From Pseudoxanthomonas daejeonensis (GTDB taxonomy: Bacteria; Pseudomonadota; Gammaproteobacteria; Xanthomonadales; Xanthomonadaceae), in NCBI RefSeq assembly GCF_010093205.1, contig NZ_PDWN01000002.1, positions 124,001 through 188,000 on the forward strand: a stretch of 64,000 nt of DNA, given 5' to 3'. Of this stretch, positions 1-56,185 are shown in pieces. The translations under genes and the position numbers were made by a program. The notes under the pieces were generated by a model. That model was not told the DNA's origin and ran no database searches. It worked only from the letters and a program-made list of their open reading frames with translations. Within the stretch, counting starts at the first letter, position 1, and each line of letters starts with the position of its first letter.

Positions 1-2989
1 CGACTATCCGGGTGGCGCGCGCGTCGCGCAGCAGCTTCTCCAACCAGGGCTCCCACGTGGACTCGCCGGCCACTTCCGCCGCGGTGACGAAGCCCAACCC
101 GGTCAGCACCTCGTGCATCTCGTCGGCGTTGCGCGCCTGCGGCCAGGCTTCGCGGCGCACCTGTTCGACCGCATCGCCGTCGAGCCGCCCGAGGTCGGTC
201 GCCGCCTGCGGATCGGCGTAGCGGCGCGTCTGCACGGCCTGGGTGCGTCGCTCCTCCAGCGGTGCGTCGTCGAGGAAAGCATAGGGACGTGCGTTGAGCG
301 CCTCGGCCGCCAGCGGCGACGGCGCGGCCAGGTCACGCGCCTGCACCGTGATCGCACCCGATTCCAGGCCGCGCAGCAGCTCGAGCCAGCCCTCGGTGTC
401 CATCGCCTCGTGCAGGCAATCGTCCAGCGTCTGCGCGACCAGCGGATGGTCGGGCACTTCGCGCTCGCCGACGATGTTCTCCAGGCAGGCCACCTGGTCG
501 GGGAACACCGTGGCCAGCAGGTCCTCGGATTTCATCCGCTGCAATTGCGGCGGCACCTTCTTGCCGCCGACGAAACGCGGCAGGGCCAGCGCGGTGGTCG
601 CGTTCCAGCGCCAGCGCACCGGGAACAGCGGCGCATCCAGCAAAGCCTGCACCAGCACGTCCTGCGCCGACGAGGAATGCAGGTACTTGGCCACCTCGAT
701 CAGCGGGAAGCTGTGGCTGGTCGACAGCGACAGCACGATCGCGTCCTCGGTCGCCGCGGCCTGCAGTTCGAAGTTGAACTGGCGGCAGAAGCGCTTGCGC
801 AGGGCCAGGCCCCAGGCGCGGTTGAGGCGGCTGCCGTAGGGGCTGTGGATGACCAGGTGGGTCGAGCCGGTCTCGTCGAAGAAGCGCTCGAACACGATGG
901 TCTGCTGGGTCGGCATCGCCCCCAGCGCGATCGCGGTCGAACCGAGGTAGTCGACCAGCTGGCGCGCGGCGGACTCGTCCAAACCCGCCTCGTCGCACAG
1001 CCAGGCCAGCGCGGTATCCGCGCCATCGATGGTGAAGCGCTCTCCGGCTTCGCCACCGCCTGCTGCATCTGCATCGGCCGCGCCATCGACGATGGCCGCT
1101 TCGGCCGGCACGCGCACCACCTGGGCGTCAGGCATGCGCGTGGCGATCTCTTCGCGCAGCCGCGACACGCCCTGCGACAGCTCGTCGGTGCGGCCCGGCG
1201 CCTCGCCCAGCCAGAACGGAATGCTGGGCGGCATGCCCTGCGCATCCTCCACCCGCACCCGGCCCGCCTCCACGCGCAGGATCCGGTAACTGGCATTGCC
1301 CAGCTGGAAGATGTCGCCGGCCATGCTCTCGATCGCGAAATCCTCGTTGACCGAGCCGATGAACGTGGACGACGGCTCCAGCACCACCGCGTAGTCGCCG
1401 GTGTCGGGGATGGTGCCGCCGGACATGGTCGCGACCAGGCGCGCGCCCTGGCGCCCGCGCAGGCGGCGATTGACCGCGTCGCGGTGCAGCCAGCCGGCAC
1501 GCGGGCCGCGCCGGTCGCTGAAGCCGTCGGCGAGCATCTTCACGACCTCGTCGAACCTCGCCCGCTCCAGCCGCGCGTACGGCCAGGCGCGCAGGCACCA
1601 GTCGTACAGCGCATCCTCGTCCCATTCGGTCGCGGCGACCTCGGCCACGATCTGCTGGGCCAGCACGTCCAGCGGCGCCGGCGGAATGCGCAACGCGTCC
1701 AGCTCACCGCGGCGCACGCAATCGAGCAAGGCCGCGCATTCGACCAGCTCGTCGCGGGTCTGCGGGAACAGCCGCGCCTTCGGCACGCCGCCGACGTGGT
1801 GGCCCGAGCGCCCGGCGCGCTGCAGGAACGCGGCGATCGAGCGCGGCGAGCCGAGCTGGCAGACCAGGTCCACGTCGCCGATGTCCAGACCCAGCTCCAG
1901 CGAAGCAGTGGCGACCAGCACCTGCAGCTGGCCGGCCTTGAGCTTCTGCTCGGCCTCCAGGCGCAGCTCCTTGGACAGGCTGCCGTGGTGGGTGCCGACG
2001 TTCTCGCGCCCGAGCAGTTCGCCCAGGTTGAACGCGGCGCGCTCGGCCATGCGCCGCGTGTTGACGAATACCAGCGTGGTCCGGTGCGCGCGCACCCGTT
2101 CGACCAGCTGCGCGTAGACCTGCTCCCACTGCTCGTTGGACATCACCGCCGACAGCGGCGTGGGCGGCAGTTCCAGCGCGAGGTCGCGCTGCTTGGCGTA
2201 GCCGATGTCGACCACGGCGCAGTCGGGCACGTCATGCGTGGCGGTGCCGCCGAGCACCGCCTGGCTGCCGGCCAGGGGATCGGGACCGGGCCAGCCGGGC
2301 AGCGCGTCGCGCGTGGGATAGACGTTCGCGCCGCCGACCAGGAAGCGCGCGACTTCCTCCACCGGCTTCTGCGTGGCCGACAGCCCGATGCGCACCAGCG
2401 GCCGCCCGCACAGCGCTTCCAGCCGTTCCAGCGACAGCGACAGGTGGCTGCCGCGCTTGTCGTCGGCCAGTGCGTGGATCTCGTCGACGATCACGCTGCG
2501 CACCGTGGCGAGCATCGCCCGGCCCGAGGCCGAGCCAAGCAGCACGTACAGCGATTCGGGCGTGGTGACGAGGATGTGCGGTGGCTTCTTGCGCACCTGC
2601 GCACGCTCGGCCTGCGGCGTGTCGCCGGTGCGCACGGCGGCACGGATCTCCACGTCGGGCAGGCCCAGCTCCAGCAGCGCGTCGCGGATCCCGGCCAGCG
2701 GCGCCTCCAGGTTCAGGCGGATGTCGTTGGACAGCGCCTTCAGCGGCGACACATAGAGGACGCTGGTGCGGTCGGCCAGTTCGCCACCCCCGTCCAGGCC
2801 CTCGCGCACCAGTGCGTCGATCGCGGCCAGGAACGCGGTCAGGGTCTTGCCCGAACCGGTGGGCGCGGCGACCAGGGTGTTGCGTCCGGCCATGATCGCC
2901 GGCCACGCCGCAGCCTGTGCCGCGGTCGGCCCGGGAAATGCCCCGTCGAACCAGCGGGCGACGGCGGGATGGAAGGCGTCGAGGGTCAT
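1..2989 (-). CDS. lhr: Lhr-family DEAD/DEAH-box helicase (partial, 3' end outside window)
   Basis: About 996 N-terminal residues are present and the frame is still open at base 1. Residues 42-49 are the Walker A motif APTGSGKT; further on lie a DEIH box (motif II), SATQ (motif III), and a second RecA domain with an [18 protein letters not shown] segment. After that come the winged-helix and Lhr-specific regions. The order and spacing match large Lhr-type superfamily 2 helicases (about 1,400-1,550 residues), which are 3'-5' translocases tied to DNA repair or RNA handling. The ATG at 2989 is chosen because the protein begins [14 protein letters not shown], the usual short lead before the helicase core. 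The gene stands alone, transcribed away from the tRNA. No frameshift is visible. The precise Lhr subfamily cannot be settled without the C-terminus. Confidence 0.9.
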
Positions 2990-4260: not shown

Positions 4261-4322
4261 GGTCGCCGTGCGGGAGTTTCAGGCATGGCACCGCTCGGTT
4301 GCGCGACCGGTCATCTGCTCTT

Positions 4323-4420
4323 TGTAGGAGCGGGCATGACCGCGACACCGACGCCTCATGGCGCGGGCGACACCCTCATGGTTCCGACGGCCTCGCGTCG
4401 CGGTCATGCCCGCTCCTACA
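4323..4420. repeat. BIME: pair of A-type REPs, head-out
   Basis: Two A-type units (TGTAGGAGCGGGCATGACC, then GCGACACCG) face each other in inverted orientation across a roughly 40-base spacer. Both outer ends carry the GTAG head. They sit between queE and queC and interrupt what could be a two-gene operon. Confidence 0.93.
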
Positions 4421-4492
4421 AAAAGCGACAGTCCGCTTCGCGAAAGGCGGCTGGTCTCGGACCGGATCTGTCGCGCGCGACCACCCCCTCGC

Positions 4493-5152: not shown

Positions 5153-5193
5153 CGGCGGATCGTGGTTCTCAGGCGGACGGGCCGCGGGGGTGA

Positions 5194-5291
5194 TGTAGGA
5201 GCGGGCATGACCGCGACACCGAGGGCATCGGAATCGCGATGGCGTCGCCTGTGTCGAAGACGTCGGTGTCGCGGTCATGCCCGCTCCTACA
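5194..5291. repeat. BIME: pair of A-type REPs, head-out
   Basis: Inverted pair of A-type units with GTAG heads outward, 42 bases upstream of the queE start. It has the same design as the block at 4323-4420 but a different spacer. Confidence 0.93.
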
Positions 5292-12014: not shown

Positions 12015-12527
12015 CTACAGCGAAGCCCCGTCCAGCCACACGCAGTCCCAGAACGGGTAGTCGCCGATGCGCTCGACCAGCCCCGCTCGCAGCGGATTGG
12101 CCACGATGTAGCGCGCAACCGAGCGCAGGTCATCCTCCTGCCGCAGTGCCCTGTCATGGAAGGCCGGCCCCCACAGGGCTCCGGCACGCGCCAGCATCCG
12201 GTTGACCTGCACGCCCGTGGCCGCCTTCATCCGCGAGACCACCATCTCCAGCGGCACCCGCGGTCCAAGCTCGATCAGCCAGTGCGCGTGGTCGGGCATC
12301 AGCACCCAGGCCAGCAGCCTTGCATCGGCCAGCGCGGCGGGTTGCCGGAACGCCCGAACCGCCTCGCAGCCGACATGGAAGTTGGCGAACCAGGGGTTCC
12401 GGTCGCGGGTGGCGACGGTGACGTGGTAGACCTGCCCCGGCAACGACACGCGGCCGCGCCGCAAAGCGCGGTGTCCCCGGAAGCGATCCTCGACGTGCAT
12501 GTCCATGGACACACGATGCGCGTCCAC
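12015..12527 (-). CDS. REP-associated tyrosine transposase (RAYT, Y1/HUH family)
   Basis: Single-strand DNA nickase of the IS200/IS605-like Y1 transposase superfamily, domesticated group linked to REP elements. The 170 residues contain the metal-binding HUH motif H80-A-H82 (MPDHAHWLIEL) and the catalytic tyrosine Y140 in ARYIVANPLRAGLV. The RAYT hallmark WGPAFHDRALRQEDDL comes just before it. An N-terminal PGQVYHVTVATRDRNPWF beta strand matches the family. The frame opens at a GTG (12527); ATG codons at 12506 and 12500 are equally possible starts. It is flanked on both sides by GTAG-headed REPs, the expected substrates. No IS ends or target duplication are visible, so it appears to be a resident single-copy gene. 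It is intact, with no stop or frameshift. Confidence 0.93.
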   Translation of the reverse strand: MDAHRVSMDMHVEDRFRGHRALRRGRVSLPGQVYHVTVATRDRNPWFANFHVGCEAVRAFRQPAALADARLLAWVLMPDHAHWLIELGPRVPLEMVVSRMKAATGVQVNRMLARAGALWGPAFHDRALRQEDDLRSVARYIVANPLRAGLVERIGDYPFWDCVWLDGASL

Positions 12528-12672: not shown

Positions 12673-13619
12673 TGTAGGAGCGGGCACGACCGCGACACCG
12701 AGGCGGTCAGACGCCACGAAGACGCCGCCCGTGCCGAGTCCGTCGGAATCGTGCGGCGTCGCCCGTGCCAAAGACGTCGGCTTCGCGGCCTGAAGTCCGC
12801 TCCTACAAACCCGTTGGCCCTGTCCGCATCGCCTTGTAGGAGCGGGCACGACCGCGACACCGAGGCGATCGGACGCCACGAAGACCTCGCCCGTGCCGAG
12901 TCCGTCGGAATCGTGCGGCGTCGCCCGTGCCGAAGACGTCGGCTTCGCGGCCTGAAGTCCGCTCCTACAAACCCGTTGGCGCTGTCCGCATCGCCTTGTA
13001 GGAGCGGGCACGACCGCGACACCGAGGCGGTCAGGCGCCACGAAGACGCCGCCCGTGCCGAGTCCGCCGGAATCGCGAACGCGTCGCCCGTGCCGAGGCC
13101 GCAGGCTTCGCGGCCTGAAGTCCGCTCCTACAAACCCGTGGGCGCTGTCCGCATCGCCTTGTAGGAGCGGGCACGACCGCGACACCGAGGCGGTCAGACG
13201 CCACGAAGACGCCGCCCGTGCCGAGTCCGTCGGAATCGTGCGGCGTCGCCCGTGCCAAAGACGTCGACTTCGCGGCCTGAAGTCCGCTCCTACAAACCCC
13301 TGGCGCTGTCCGCATCGCCTTGTAGGAGCGGGCACGACCGCGACACCGAGGCGGTCGGACGCCACGAAGACGCCGCCCGTGCCGAGTCCGCCGGAATCAC
13401 GAACGCGTCGCCCCTGCCGAGGCCGCAGGCTTCGCGGCCTGAAGTCCGCTCCTACAAACCCGTTGGCGCTGTCCGCATCGCCTTGTAGGAGCGGGCACGA
13501 CCGCGACACCGAGGCGATCGGACGCCACGAAGACCTCGCCCGTGCCGAGTCCGCCGGAATCGCGAACACGTCGCCCCTGCCGAGGCCGCAGGCTTCGCGG
13601 CCTGAAGTCCGCTCCTACA
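12673..13619. repeat. Tandem BIME array, six units of about 162 bases
   Basis: Six copies start at 12673, 12835, 12997, 13160, 13321 and 13484. Each has a forward A unit (TGTAGGAGCGGGCACGACC...), a spacer of about 65 bases, and a reverse B unit (GCGGCCTGAAGTCCGCTCCT). A conserved linker of about 27 bases (CCGTTGGCGCTGTCCGCATC) joins the copies. Copies differ by scattered substitutions (for example CGTGCGGCGTCG versus CGCGAACGCGTCG in the spacer), with two alternating spacer variants. It lies between the RAYT start and the pilB stop. No real gene is present; open frames through it are repeat artefacts. Confidence 0.96.
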
Positions 13620-26829: not shown

Positions 26830-27322
26830 GCTTTTAGGTATGCCTGATTTGAAGCCAAACGCCCGCAAGGCGACCGTCCCACGTCCCGCAGCCGAAGCCG
26901 CGTTGGCGGATGAAACTGGCGCCACCTTGCGCCGAGCCCTCTGGCTCGATGCGCTGGACCAGCAGTTGCGTCCCCTGCTGCCCCCCGGTTTCGCCGCCCA
27001 TTGCAGGTTGGCGAACGTGTCCGGCGAGCAACTCGTTTTTGTCACCGATTCCCCGGTCTGGCGGGCGCGGGTGCGCCTGGCAGAGGCCGAACTCCTCGAT
27101 GCGGCCCGCTCCGTCGGGCTGAATCCCACCGCAGTCATCGTTAAAACGACTACCGGTCCGTTGCGTCCGCCTGTCCCGGCCGGTGCAACGACCCCCCTGG
27201 TTTCAGCGACCGCCCGGCAAGCTCTGAGCGACGCATTGGCATCCCTGCGGGAATCCGATCCATCGGATCCCCAAGATTCCGGAGCTCCTGCCCCGGGGTC
27301 TGAGACCGACCCCGCAACGTAG
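26828..27322 (+). CDS. dciA: DciA-like DUF721 protein (helicase loader)
   Basis: DUF721 proteins (DciA) load the replicative helicase DnaB in bacteria without DnaC. The 164-residue protein carries the family core LDALDQQLRPLLPPGFAAHC and LVFVTDSPVWRARVRLAEAELL (about 40-95), then a low-complexity Pro/Ser/Asp tail. A second ATG at 26840 (MPDLKPNARK) is a good alternative start. A DUF721 gene next to an M23 peptidase and close to secA and lpxC is a common gammaproteobacterial neighbourhood. The function is assigned from the family. Confidence 0.85.
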   Translation: MLLGMPDLKPNARKATVPRPAAEAALADETGATLRRALWLDALDQQLRPLLPPGFAAHCRLANVSGEQLVFVTDSPVWRARVRLAEAELLDAARSVGLNPTAVIVKTTTGPLRPPVPAGATTPLVSATARQALSDALASLRESDPSDPQDSGAPAPGSETDPAT

Positions 27323-27658
27323 TTTTCGACGTCGGAGGACAACCTGCGGGGCATCCTATCGTCACGATTCGCTCACGTCGTTAGCGAATCATTAAAGTTT
27401 CGTTACGTCGGATACGGATCCCGCGTCGGGTTCACGCTTCGTGAAAGTCCATGAAGACCTGAAAACGCTTTCAAGACTGGAGGCCCTGTTCAGGTTTGGA
27501 GGGCAGCAGGTCAGCCGCGCCGACCCGCAGGCGTGGTCCGTCGGCAAACAGGATGGAAGACGGACAGCCTTCCGCAGGCAGCCACCCAAGGGCAGGCCGC
27601 CGCTGAAAATGGTGTGAAGCGGGGGATGCCGGGCGGGCTGTAAGCCGCGGCGGCTCGA
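27323..27658. other. Intergenic region between convergent dciA and lpxC
   Basis: 336 bases. The left half is AT-richer and contains an imperfect inverted repeat (GATTCGCTCACGTCGTTAGC then GAATC). I see no gene, RNA or clear terminator; short open frames have no recognisable protein features. Confidence 0.4.
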
Positions 27659-45018: not shown

Positions 45019-45161
45019 TTCCGTACTTGTGAAGGCCATGTGAGTTGCGCGAAACAGGAGCCGCACGACGGGTGCTGCGTCGCGTCACGACTGCATCGGA
45101 ACGCACCCATGCACGAGCCTCCCCCGGCTGAAGCTCCGGAAGAGGCGGGTGCAGGAAAAGT

Positions 45162-45512
45162 GGCGGAGCCGGCCGGTAAGCCGGGTTCTGTCGTGGACAG
45201 TCATTCCTCTAGGCGCAACGTCACCGTTACGCTCGAGCAGCCTACCCGGACCCGACGCGGGCAACGTCATGAGGTCCCTATTTGGCCTTGCTCCCGGTGG
45301 GGTTTGCCGTGCCGGCCTGTTACCAGGCTCGCGGTGCGCTCTTACCGCACCATTTCACCCTTGCCCGCATCCCGAAGGACCGCTGGCGGTATCTTTCTGT
45401 TGCACTTTCCGTCGGCTCGCGCCGCCCAGGCGTTACCTGGCACCGTGCCCTGTGGAGCCCGGACTTTCCTCGGCATCGTTTCCGATGACGCGACTGTCTG
45501 GCCGACTCCGCC
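45162..45512 (-). ncRNA. rnpB: RNase P RNA (bacterial class A)
   Basis: Catalytic RNA of RNase P, which matures tRNA 5' ends. The minus strand carries the conserved blocks GAGGAAAGTCCGGGCTCC, AGGGCACGGTGCCAGGTAAC, CAGAAAGATACCGCC, GGTAAGAGCGCACCG and AGAACCCGGCTTACCGGCC. Ends are set by the P1 helix GGCGGAGTCGGCC pairing with GGCCGGCTCCGCC, followed by a short T run (ACTTTTCC). It is about 351 nt, normal length, and lies between rsmI and mraZ on the same strand. Confidence 0.96.
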
Positions 45513-45520
45513 GGGGAGGG

Positions 45521-45550
45521 ATTCTACGGCTTCGCCGATGAATCCCCCAA
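45521..45550 (-). promoter_or_regulatory. Promoter of rnpB
   Basis: Minus strand TTGGGG, 18-base spacer, TAGAAT. The -10 ends 9 bases before the predicted 5' end of the RNA. Confidence 0.6.
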
Positions 45551-45569
45551 AATTCGCTTGAGCGAATTT
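45550..45569 (-). terminator. AT-rich hairpin upstream of rnpB, possible rsmI terminator
   Basis: AAATTCGCT-CA-AGCGAATTT, a perfect 9-bp stem followed on minus by TGGGG. It lies at the end of the rsmI-rnpB gap. It could end rsmI transcription or be an operator overlapping the rnpB -35 region. Confidence 0.45.
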
Positions 45570-45810
45570 CGGGCCCCGCTCCGATTCCCCCATCCCCTGC
45601 CGCTGCCGCGGCGCCCCTTACCAAGGGGGCTATCACGAACTGATCGCCTGCCGGCACGGGAATCAATGCCTTGGCCACTCTGGCATGGCCCAATCCGCCC
45701 GGACTGAGGGAGGCGGGTGGTGCTGATCGAGTGCTCGTTCAGCGCAGCCGCGCTGCGAGAGGAAGCCGCCGGTCGAAGCCACGACCTGGTAGCGCGTGAA
45801 GACGCGGCGG

Positions 45811-45899
45811 GCCGAGGGTATTGCGGCAGTGGCCATGGATGGCCACGTCGGCGAGTCGGCACAGGGATGTGCCGTCGAGTCGACCGCAATGCCCTCGGC
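45811..45899. repeat. Nested inverted repeat element (not REP A/B)
   Basis: Outer arms GCCGAGGGTATTGCGG and CCGCAATGCCCTCGGC (one mismatch) enclose two perfect hairpins: GTGGCCAT-GG-ATGGCCAC (45829-45846) and CGGCACA-GGGA-TGTGCCG (45857-45874). The whole can fold as a three-way structure. It lies in the 465-base gap between rnpB and rsmI, the rest of which holds no recognisable gene. Confidence 0.65.
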
Positions 45900-45977
45900 T
45901 CGCCGCGGCTCCGTCCGAAGCGACGCGGTACCGGTCGCGCTGGCGAGCGTGATCGTCACCGCGGGCTCCCACCGGGC

Positions 45978-46808
45978 TCAATCGTCCGAGCCAGCCCCGT
46001 ACAGTGCCTTGCGCGGCGCGCCGGTGATCTCGGCAGCGAGCTTGGCGGCCGCCGAGGGCGGCAGCTGCCTGGCCAGGATCGCGTGCACGCGACGGCCTTC
46101 GGCCAGGATCGCGTCGGCGTCTTCGCCCACGCCCTGCACCACCAGCACGAACTCGCCCTTGCGCTGGTCGGCATCGGCCAACACCCGCGCGTGAAGGTCG
46201 GCCAGGCTGCCGTCGAGGACGGTCTCGAACAGCTTGGTCAGCTCGCGGCCCAACACCGCCGGACGCCCGTCGCCGAACGCAGCGCACAGGTCCGCCAGCG
46301 ATTCGTCGATGCGGTGCGAAGACTCATAGAACACCAGCGTGCGTGTCTCGCCGGCCAACTCCGCCAGCCTCTCGCGCCGGGCCGAAGCCTTGGCCGGCAG
46401 GAAGCCCTCGAAGGCGAACCGGTCGCTGGGCAGGCCCGCCACGCTGAGTGCGGCCACCAGCGCCGACGGCCCGGGCACCGGGCTCACCCTCACTCCCGCC
46501 GCACGTGCGGCCCGGACCAGCCGGTAGCCGGGATCGCTGACCAGCGGGGTTCCCGCGTCGCTGACCAGGGCCAGCGATTCGCCCGCCAGCAGCCTCGCCA
46601 CCAGCCGCTCGGCCAACTGCTGTTCGTTGTGCTCGTGCAGAGCCAGCAAAGGCGTGCCGATGCCGAAATGGGCCAGCAACTGGCCGCTGCGCCGGGTGTC
46701 CTCGGCACAGACCGCGTCCACCTCGCGCAGTACCTGCTGGGCGCGCGGGGACAGGTCACCGAGGTTGCCGATGGGAGTGGCGACGACGTGGAGCGTTGCG
46801 ACGGGCAT
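45978..46808 (-). CDS. rsmI: 16S rRNA (cytidine1402-2'-O) methyltransferase RsmI
   Basis: Methylates the ribose of C1402, the same nucleotide that RsmH modifies on the base. The 276 residues begin MPVATLHVVATPIGNLGDLS and show AEDTRRSGQLLAHFGI, LVSDAGTPLVSDPGYRLV, PVPGPSALVAALSVAGLPSD and FYESSHRID, all typical of this tetrapyrrole-methylase-fold family. It is divergent from lpoA, the usual pairing. Confidence 0.97.
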   Translation of the reverse strand: MPVATLHVVATPIGNLGDLSPRAQQVLREVDAVCAEDTRRSGQLLAHFGIGTPLLALHEHNEQQLAERLVARLLAGESLALVSDAGTPLVSDPGYRLVRAARAAGVRVSPVPGPSALVAALSVAGLPSDRFAFEGFLPAKASARRERLAELAGETRTLVFYESSHRIDESLADLCAAFGDGRPAVLGRELTKLFETVLDGSLADLHARVLADADQRKGEFVLVVQGVGEDADAILAEGRRVHAILARQLPPSAAAKLAAEITGAPRKALYGAGSDD

Positions 46809-55819: not shown

Positions 55820-55989
55820 CAGCGCGCCTCCGGAAAAACCACGCGACAGTGGCCCGCGGCCGATCGCAAACGGGCCTGCAGGGCGACGGAACGGGCGAAT
55901 CTGGGGAGCTTCATGTGCGTCTTCCGCGTAAGGGCTGCGAAAAACGTCCCGGGGCACGAGCGGCCACCCGGCACGGGCCGGGCGGCTGC

Positions 55990-56185
55990 GTCTTCTTTCA
56001 TCCGGACTCTAGGGCGCGACCTGGGCCACGCCACAACCGTCGGCTCCGGCATCGGACCGGATCTGCTGACCTCCCGGCGCGGCGGAAAGCCGGCATCGGG
56101 AGCGCTCGCGGGCTCGCGCCGGCCCCTTCACAGGAACTGGCGCCTACCGCCGGTGGGGAATTCCACCCCGCCCTGAAGACGTTCG
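55990..56185 (-). promoter_or_regulatory. FMN riboswitch (RFN element) upstream of ribE
   Basis: Minus strand contains the conserved RFN blocks in order: CTTCAGGGCGGGGTGGAATT, CCCCACCGGCGGTA, an extended P3 arm with AGCCCGCGAGCG, GGTCAGCAGATCCGGTC, CCGGAGCCGACGGT and AGTCCGGATGAAAGAAG. P1 pairs CTTC with GAAG at the ends. It lies about 170 bases before ribE, and FMN binding would down-regulate ribE-ribB-ribH (and possibly nusB-thiL). Confidence 0.96.

Follow-up and report, generated by a model that had tools for sequence, protein, structure and literature searches.

A dispersed, often divergently paired repeat of Pseudoxanthomonas with a predicted TwoAYGGAY-like three-way fold and two RsmA/CsrA-type GGA loops

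What is the strongly foldable sequence between rnpB and the putative rsmI gene of Pseudoxanthomonas daejeonensis? A preliminary description of the window (the whole stretch of 64,000 nucleotides that was analysed) had noted a three-way foldable inverted repeat here and had named a small structured RNA and a MITE-like element among its possible identities. Both guesses found support, the former in covariation, a one-strand excess of G-U pairs and fixed GGA loops, and the latter in a dispersal that resembles that of MITEs and REPINs; nothing pointed to a recombination site, the third identity proposed.

Structure of the element in the window

RNA folding predicts a three-way fold on the plus strand at 45803-45907 (105 nt) between rnpB and putative rsmI. 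The surrounding region, 45780-45930, has a folding energy of -98 kcal/mol against -69.6 +/- 4.2 kcal/mol for dinucleotide shuffles (z-score -6.7), and none of the 200 shuffles was equal or better, so the three-way structure first reported is present, at the coordinates then given. Some of its dimensions were revised (Table 1): the outer stem comprises 23 bp rather than arms of 16 bases, and of the two hairpin stems, given as 8 and 7 bp, the second indeed has 7 bp whereas the first is one pair shorter. Because the outer stem includes G-U pairs and is nowhere exact over nine consecutive bases, an inverted-repeat search with 9-base seeds missed it. Within hairpin 2, the sequence ACAGGGATGT agrees with the CsrA SELEX consensus RUACARGGAUGU over the final ten bases of the latter.

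The mechanical open reading frames listed for this region run across the element. A scan of positions 45450-46050 yielded no sigma-70-like and no terminator-like sites, and on that ground a terminator or a promoter-linked leader was rejected. The putative rsmI product has full-length matches of 85.6-94.1% identity that adjoin rnpB in 11 other Pseudoxanthomonas loci. Elsewhere in the window, an FMN riboswitch (RF00050, 75.7 bits) was found at 55986-56184 on the minus strand, and the fold of a hairpin pair at 27190-27350, also on the minus strand, was not significant (z -1.8, 10 of 200 shuffles equally good).

Table 1. Coordinates of the element, its parts and associated features (window positions unless a locus is named)
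Feature	Position	Strand	Basis and remarks
Type A conserved element	45798..45919	+	R1 covariance model, 134.5 bits, E 1.4e-27, model positions 1-122; R1 was trained partly on this copy
Outer stem (23 bp), 5' arm	45803..45825	+	RNA fold; outer-stem pairs covary between copies
Outer stem, 3' arm	45885..45907	+	RNA fold
Hairpin 1, GTGGCCA-TGGA-TGGCCAC	45829..45846	+	7-bp stem, NGGA tetraloop; loop motif CATGGATG
Second arm	45847..45884	+	6-bp stem, G-A/G-A internal loop, hairpin 2 on top; fold and paralogue alignment
Hairpin 2, CGGCACA-GGGA-TGTGCCG	45857..45874	+	7-bp stem, NGGA tetraloop; includes ACAGGGATGT
3' motif (N)CCG(A/G)A, unpaired	45914..45919	+	Conserved in alignment A5
rnpB, RNase P RNA	45161..45509	-	RF00010, 322 bits; neighbour, divergent from element
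Putative rsmI	45978..46808	-	ORF of 276 aa, 3' end towards the 3' side of the element; name from the preliminary description
ORF of 170 aa over Y1_Tnp match	12015-12527	-	
Element at L122 (G051)	560-728	+	
Element at L122 (G051)	1191-1309	-	R2, 34.7 bits
Element at L122 (G051)	1501-1607	+	

Copies in P. daejeonensis and its relatives

A DNA search identified a second copy in the same genome (76% identity), lying between an apparent sucD and a sigma-factor gene according to our reading of the ORFs, and a third copy adjoins the second on the opposite strand. This genome yielded 21 hits for the pattern ACANGGATGT, as opposed to one for the reversed control, and five three-way copies contain 8 of these hits. 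A covariance model built from five own-genome paralogues (R1) detected 8 distinct loci at E < 1e-7, and the single-copy status that had been considered beforehand does not apply.

At E <= 0.01, R1 had matches in 24 of 60 genomes, P. daejeonensis included, although some are weak or antisense and counts at this threshold take in REP palindromes as well as antisense matches of true copies. Because REP palindromes score weakly with R1 (27.7 and 31.9 bits at window positions 4309-4427 and 5189-5289), matches above about 50 bits are trusted most. A second model, R2, built from 62 copies, matched 82 of 297 genomes of the bacterial family at E <= 1e-5, in 54 of them with a best E <= 1e-10. Within Pseudoxanthomonas, 15 of 17 genomes have R2 matches at E <= 1e-5, the two without being G009 and G010, and the number of sites per genome ranges from 0 to at least 60. 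The largest set was found in G011, with at least 59 dispersed sites plus the one at rnpB; 40 of the dispersed sites, together with flanks of up to 3 kb, contain 68 copies.

The same architecture, with different outer stems, occurs at twelve loci (L213, L215 and L217-L226) in seven further genera of the family, and all 12 contain two GGA loops. Just beyond the outer stem, CCG(A/G)A is kept in nearly all copies, other genera included: in alignment A5, columns 125-127 read C in 57, C in 59 and G in 59 of 59 rows, with A in 57 of 59 at column 129, and the 12 loci from other genera end in CCGAA (9), CCGGA (2) or CCGCA (1). Many Pseudoxanthomonas copies are preceded, some 25-30 nt upstream, by CGAAGCC or CGGAGCC. 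At two further P. daejeonensis loci (L021 and L022; G000 C36:16976 and C37:98527), single CACAUGGAUGUG hairpins are followed by hairpins of the GCGA(A/G)GGACTCGC type that have GGA within the loop or close to it, and these may be more sites of the RsmA type.

Conservation of the fold and of the two loops

Among the five own-genome paralogues, 21 of 47 pairs show two-sided change. In the larger set of 62 copies (59 distinct), 96.4% of pair cells are paired, compared with 74.4% after shuffling and 31.9-45.0% in slid-partner controls, in an alignment with nearly gapless helices that was fitted to the structure and so leans towards pairing. For the 59 distinct copies, two-sided change was seen in 36 of 46 pairs, with 549 cells changed on both sides against 161 in the shuffled set. 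These comparisons show that the predicted three-way fold has been preserved by compensatory change across copies. G-U cells (116, in 22 pair columns) far outnumber A-C cells (10, in 5 columns, with a further 11 at the closing pair of loop 2); related rows and model-based selection inflate this contrast, and its direction points to the GGA strand as the one that folds.

Both loops have the form CA(N)GGANG in 127 of 128 distinct copies, that in the window among them, a count favoured by the choice of copies with a model that includes the loops (the 128 are 129 distinct rows less an antisense duplicate, L159:2994-3115, minus strand). The one true copy without both motifs is L204:3001-3121; the rnpB copy of G011, which is outside this set, has lost its second GGA loop. 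Loop 1 is mostly CAUGGAUG or CAGGGAUG, loop 2 is also CAGGAUG or CAGGACG, and N may be any base or absent. The G-A/G-A internal loop is more variable, being swapped for other pairs in some copies, such as A_C12.

By sequence comparison, the loops agree both with 5'-CANGGANG-3', which is named as the Rsm-binding motif (PMC6849547), and with RUACARGGAUGU, reported as the CsrA SELEX consensus (PMC7652899). At the level of sequence, therefore, two nearly invariant loops, CA(N)GGA[U/C]G, match the Rsm/CsrA-binding motif. Such motifs are described as generally paired, a consequence of the homodimeric state of CsrA (PMC4333381). In their length and high G+C content the stems are unlike most SELEX hairpins, which are reported to have four or fewer contiguous pairs (PMC7652899).

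The P. daejeonensis genome has one csrA match. In its 68-aa product, 7 of 53 residues differ from those of the best-matching chain of known structure (7yr6_E, CsrA). Since csrA was found in 37 of 37 genomes examined, including the element-free G009 and G010, its presence discriminates little. In Pseudoxanthomonas sp. NC8 (G014), the csrA match (G014:C1:1174531-1174688) falls into two pieces with a stop inside one, which could be a sequencing error in a genome scored as 57% complete.

Relation to TwoAYGGAY and to Rsm/Csr RNAs

The closest described RNA is TwoAYGGAY (RF01731), which appears as a table entry in PMC2864571 and is described with two terminal GGA loops, tandem GAs in one stem and a poorly conserved external stem (PMC4333381); the same source mentions RMfam-predicted CsrA binding. 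The element resembles it in each of these three features, the tandem GAs being the G-A/G-A internal loop in the hairpin 2 arm. In the window copy, loop 1 (AUGGAU) fits A-Y-GGA-Y, whereas loop 2 (AGGGAU) has G in place of Y, and across copies N is free or missing rather than Y. Furthermore, the window copy had no RF01731 match at the gathering cut-off or among the matches listed at E <= 10, a list from which one lower-scoring match of the same clan had been dropped, and stricter filters gave none in its genome at E <= 1. Within the genus, the cut-off of 43 bits was exceeded only by one G013 copy (45.7 bits), further G005 and G013 copies scoring 36-42 bits and one G012 copy 24.8 bits.

Elsewhere in the class, RF01731 itself is multi-copy, with matches at E <= 1e-4 in 15 of 274 genomes, in 13 of them above the cut-off, and at least nine matches in each of five genomes; none was found in 14 control genomes. 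Applied to 25 RF01731 loci of other families, R2 gave 42-54 bits for 8, 27-41 bits for 9 and no match at E <= 0.01 for 8, to be read against a yardstick of 28-32 bits for REP palindromes that was measured with R1 only. When four such loci were folded, two (L228 and L231) had a second loop without GGA. The dispersed, doublet-forming and mobile-like organisation set out below is another difference, being absent from the accessible text of the published TwoAYGGAY descriptions. Judged by sequence and predicted fold, then, the element is TwoAYGGAY-like, and we do not file it as a member of RF01731.

A weak match to hairpin 2 (13.9 bits against a cut-off of 100) came from RsmV, which shares clan CL00106 with RF01731; everything else that Rfam listed for the window at E <= 10 was taken as chance. 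CsrB, CsrC and RsmX, RsmY, RsmZ and RsmV are sRNA genes that as a rule carry several GGA sites each. The element shares with these antagonists the GGA-loop hairpins for CsrA/RsmA, with the Rsm/CsrA motif in the 127 of 128 copies noted above, but differs in having two sites per copy, many copies and no recognised promoter or terminator. Within the same bacterial family, RsmU of Xanthomonas campestris is an RsmA-binding RNA processed from a 3' UTR, and the accessible text of its description gives the locus as conserved in Xanthomonas strains, found in no other bacteria and without Rfam relatives (PMC7694677).

Divergent doublets and the question of a selfish repeat

The 60 loci of G011 and G007 contain 107 true copies. 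Clusters of copies within 700 bp number 42 (28 in G011 and 14 in G007, counting L159 after removal of its antisense duplicate and L196, where three minus copies are followed by one plus), and every one has a divergent B/A junction; none is convergent. The spacer set took minus-plus pairs by construction (L159 by hand), and the finding of no convergent clusters rests on a separate cluster scan. The spacers measure 96-517 bp, and 33 of 42 contain the REP core GTAGGAGC (28 of 28 in G011, 5 of 14 in G007). In G011, nine doublets combine A-I with B-I and 19 combine A-II with B-II, while none of the 28 is crossed (P 1.4e-7, for sub-families defined after inspection of the rows), which argues for the spread of B-spacer-A as a single unit in that genome. 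A less refined test of co-inheritance, based on arm identity, was significant in G011 and not in G007 (P 0.23). As read from these copies, the genomes show a divergent doublet in Pseudoxanthomonas, with B and A facing outward, that in G011 spreads as a unit.

Divergent pairing is not universal, as a same-strand pair in G005 (L092) and the three same-strand copies at L196 demonstrate. Outside the genus, neighbours within 700 bp among the matches listed, some of them weak, were divergent in 13 cases, convergent in three (L122, across rnpB; L241, weak; and L244) and on the same strand in three. Many outward ends share GCC..CGCTTTTGC and lead into tandem or hexamer arrays, (GGTTGC)n for example; no clean empty site came to light, and a target-site duplication could therefore not be read. 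At the G011 loci L151-L190, (GGTTGC)n, (GTTGCC)n or (GACCTT)n begins about 24 nt beyond the 3' end of many A copies, and tandem repeats of about 45 bp lie beyond the B end in several, which gives the arrays a SINE-like look.

The reading that we favour, and consider on balance probable from these sequence comparisons, is that the element is a dispersed, non-autonomous REPIN/MITE-like repeat whose plus (GGA) strand would encode a TwoAYGGAY-like three-way RNA that binds RsmA. Its most serious competitor, which we regard as rather unlikely, is a purely DNA-level selfish element of the REPIN/MITE kind, in which a transposase would read the hairpins and GGA loops as single-stranded DNA and the likeness to RsmA sites would be incidental. 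The dozens of copies and the doublets that spread as units in G011 would suit such an element, as would their opposed orientation, which recalls REP doublets and BIMEs, the REP cores in 33 of 42 spacers and the Y1_Tnp matches (E <= 0.001) in 15 of 17 genomes of the genus. The loops, however, fit an RNA-protein consensus down to the free or absent N, G-U pairs far outnumber A-C on one strand, and the foot lacks a conserved GTAG.

Nor is the element itself a REP. It shares with REPs, REPINs and BIMEs the character of dispersed extragenic palindromes in opposed pairs (divergent in all 42 clusters, with no crossed doublet among the 28 of G011), and GTAG REPs lie inside 33 of the 42 doublets. REPs, however, are given as 20-40 bp long (PMC3733652), whereas the element spans about 122 nt and combines a three-way fold with fixed GGA loops. 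GTAG was found at the foot of none of 20 G011 copies inspected, and the GTAG at about 45789-45792 of the window lies outside the conserved unit. REPs occur as separate elements in the window and in the spacers, and identity with GTAG REPs was accordingly rejected, in agreement with the initial impression that the structure is unlike the REPs of the window, which are of the GTAG type.

The only Y1_Tnp (RAYT-type) match of P. daejeonensis (G000:C22:136105-136431, window 12105-12431) lies in the window, and five REP-like hairpins spaced 161-163 bp apart (12790-13461) stand beside its ORF. In G004 the element model has 10 matches and Y1_Tnp none; this makes a RAYT a less than obvious mobiliser and is a further point against the selfish-DNA explanation.

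Gene context

Only 4 of 59 element-bearing gaps lie between divergent genes, compared with 16 of 49 element-free gaps at the same loci (Fisher P 0.0009; gene context from a crude ORF/GC3 caller), which indicates that the copies sit mainly at gene ends. The same scarcity of divergent gene pairs would be expected of an ordinary 3' hairpin, REP- or terminator-like, that stabilises or ends neighbouring transcripts with no protein-specific role. We hold this to be improbable: the window copy has no terminator-like site, and a simple stabiliser needs no two fixed CA(N)GGANG loops while its stems vary freely.

The rnpB site across the genus

A copy scoring at least 70 bits is found upstream of rnpB in 5 of 17 Pseudoxanthomonas genomes: P. 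daejeonensis (G000), G002, G007, G011 and G016. Two of the five, G007 and G016, have a doublet there, whereas the window has one copy, of type A. Within the stretch examined around rnpB, G002 and G016 gave no match to rsmI. The arm CGGGCCGAGGG is common to the A copies of G000 and G007, and one outer pair is C-G in the former and U-A in the latter, which makes orthology with a compensatory change probable. Both halves of a doublet are present at the rnpB site of P. kaohsiungensis, and the single copy in the window probably derives from a doublet by loss of the B half. Genome G004 retains a truncated copy (34.7 bits) and G012 a remnant recognised by eye. No match was obtained at the rnpB site in G001, G005, G006, G008, G009, G014 and G015; those in G003 and G013 (27.3 and 23.1 bits) are REP palindromes by eye, and none was found in the stretch examined of G010, where only an rsmI fragment was detected.

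Surroundings of rnpB recur as a site for such elements: in G051, from another family of the order, rnpB (L122, positions 791-1137) is flanked by TwoAYGGAY-type elements. While the copies at rnpB in five genomes and the flanking elements in G051 might suggest a dedicated trans-acting RsmA-antagonist sRNA gene of the CsrB/RsmY kind between rnpB and rsmI, with the other copies secondary, this is very improbable given the lack of a recognisable promoter or terminator, the mere two GGA loops, the many equal copies elsewhere and a site that is empty, truncated or decayed in the remaining genomes of the genus.

A possible role in RsmA control

If the favoured reading of a mobile-like repeat encoding an RsmA-binding RNA is correct, the element would be transcribed either as an extension of neighbouring transcripts or from a promoter that escaped recognition, and the two loops of one element would bind one RsmA/CsrA dimer. 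Copies could then act as RsmA sites in 3' UTRs or as a distributed pool of RsmA decoys, and in a divergent doublet read-through from either side would expose the GGA loops of the distal element. Several observations count against it: no promoter-like or terminator-like site was recognised around the window copy, read-through from putative rsmI would yield the antisense strand of the window copy, the stems are G+C-rich and stable, single copies decay, and some distant relatives have second loops without GGA.

TwoAYGGAY, its predicted CsrA binding and REP doublets are already known. What looks new is the dispersed, paired and mobile-like organisation, in a family whose member Xanthomonas is without the classical RsmA antagonists. 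As far as titles, the opening lines of abstracts and the accessible passages disclose, the papers surveyed give no description of a dispersed, divergently paired and co-spreading repeat of this kind. The accessible text of PMC7694677 reports no significant homologue of CsrB, CsrC or RsmV, W, X, Y and Z in any sequenced Xanthomonas, and RsmU as one new RsmA sequester there. It is conceivable, and we offer it as a tentative proposal, that a transposon-like repeat spread RsmA/CsrA decoy RNAs through the Lysobacteraceae and other gammaproteobacteria, that its divergent doublet form makes it strand-neutral, with two RsmA sites exposed whichever side is read through, that copy number tunes free RsmA, and that these RNAs partly replace the CsrB/RsmY type not found in Xanthomonas.

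Dispersed hairpins of the RsmA type are a concrete, testable candidate for RsmA control in the same family as Xanthomonas. They would also recast TwoAYGGAY, whose link to CsrA is a prediction in the accessible sources, as a multi-copy and often paired element, and may represent a repeat that spreads because of, or despite, binding a global regulator. Pseudoxanthomonas and its relatives may thus carry many small RsmA/CsrA decoys.
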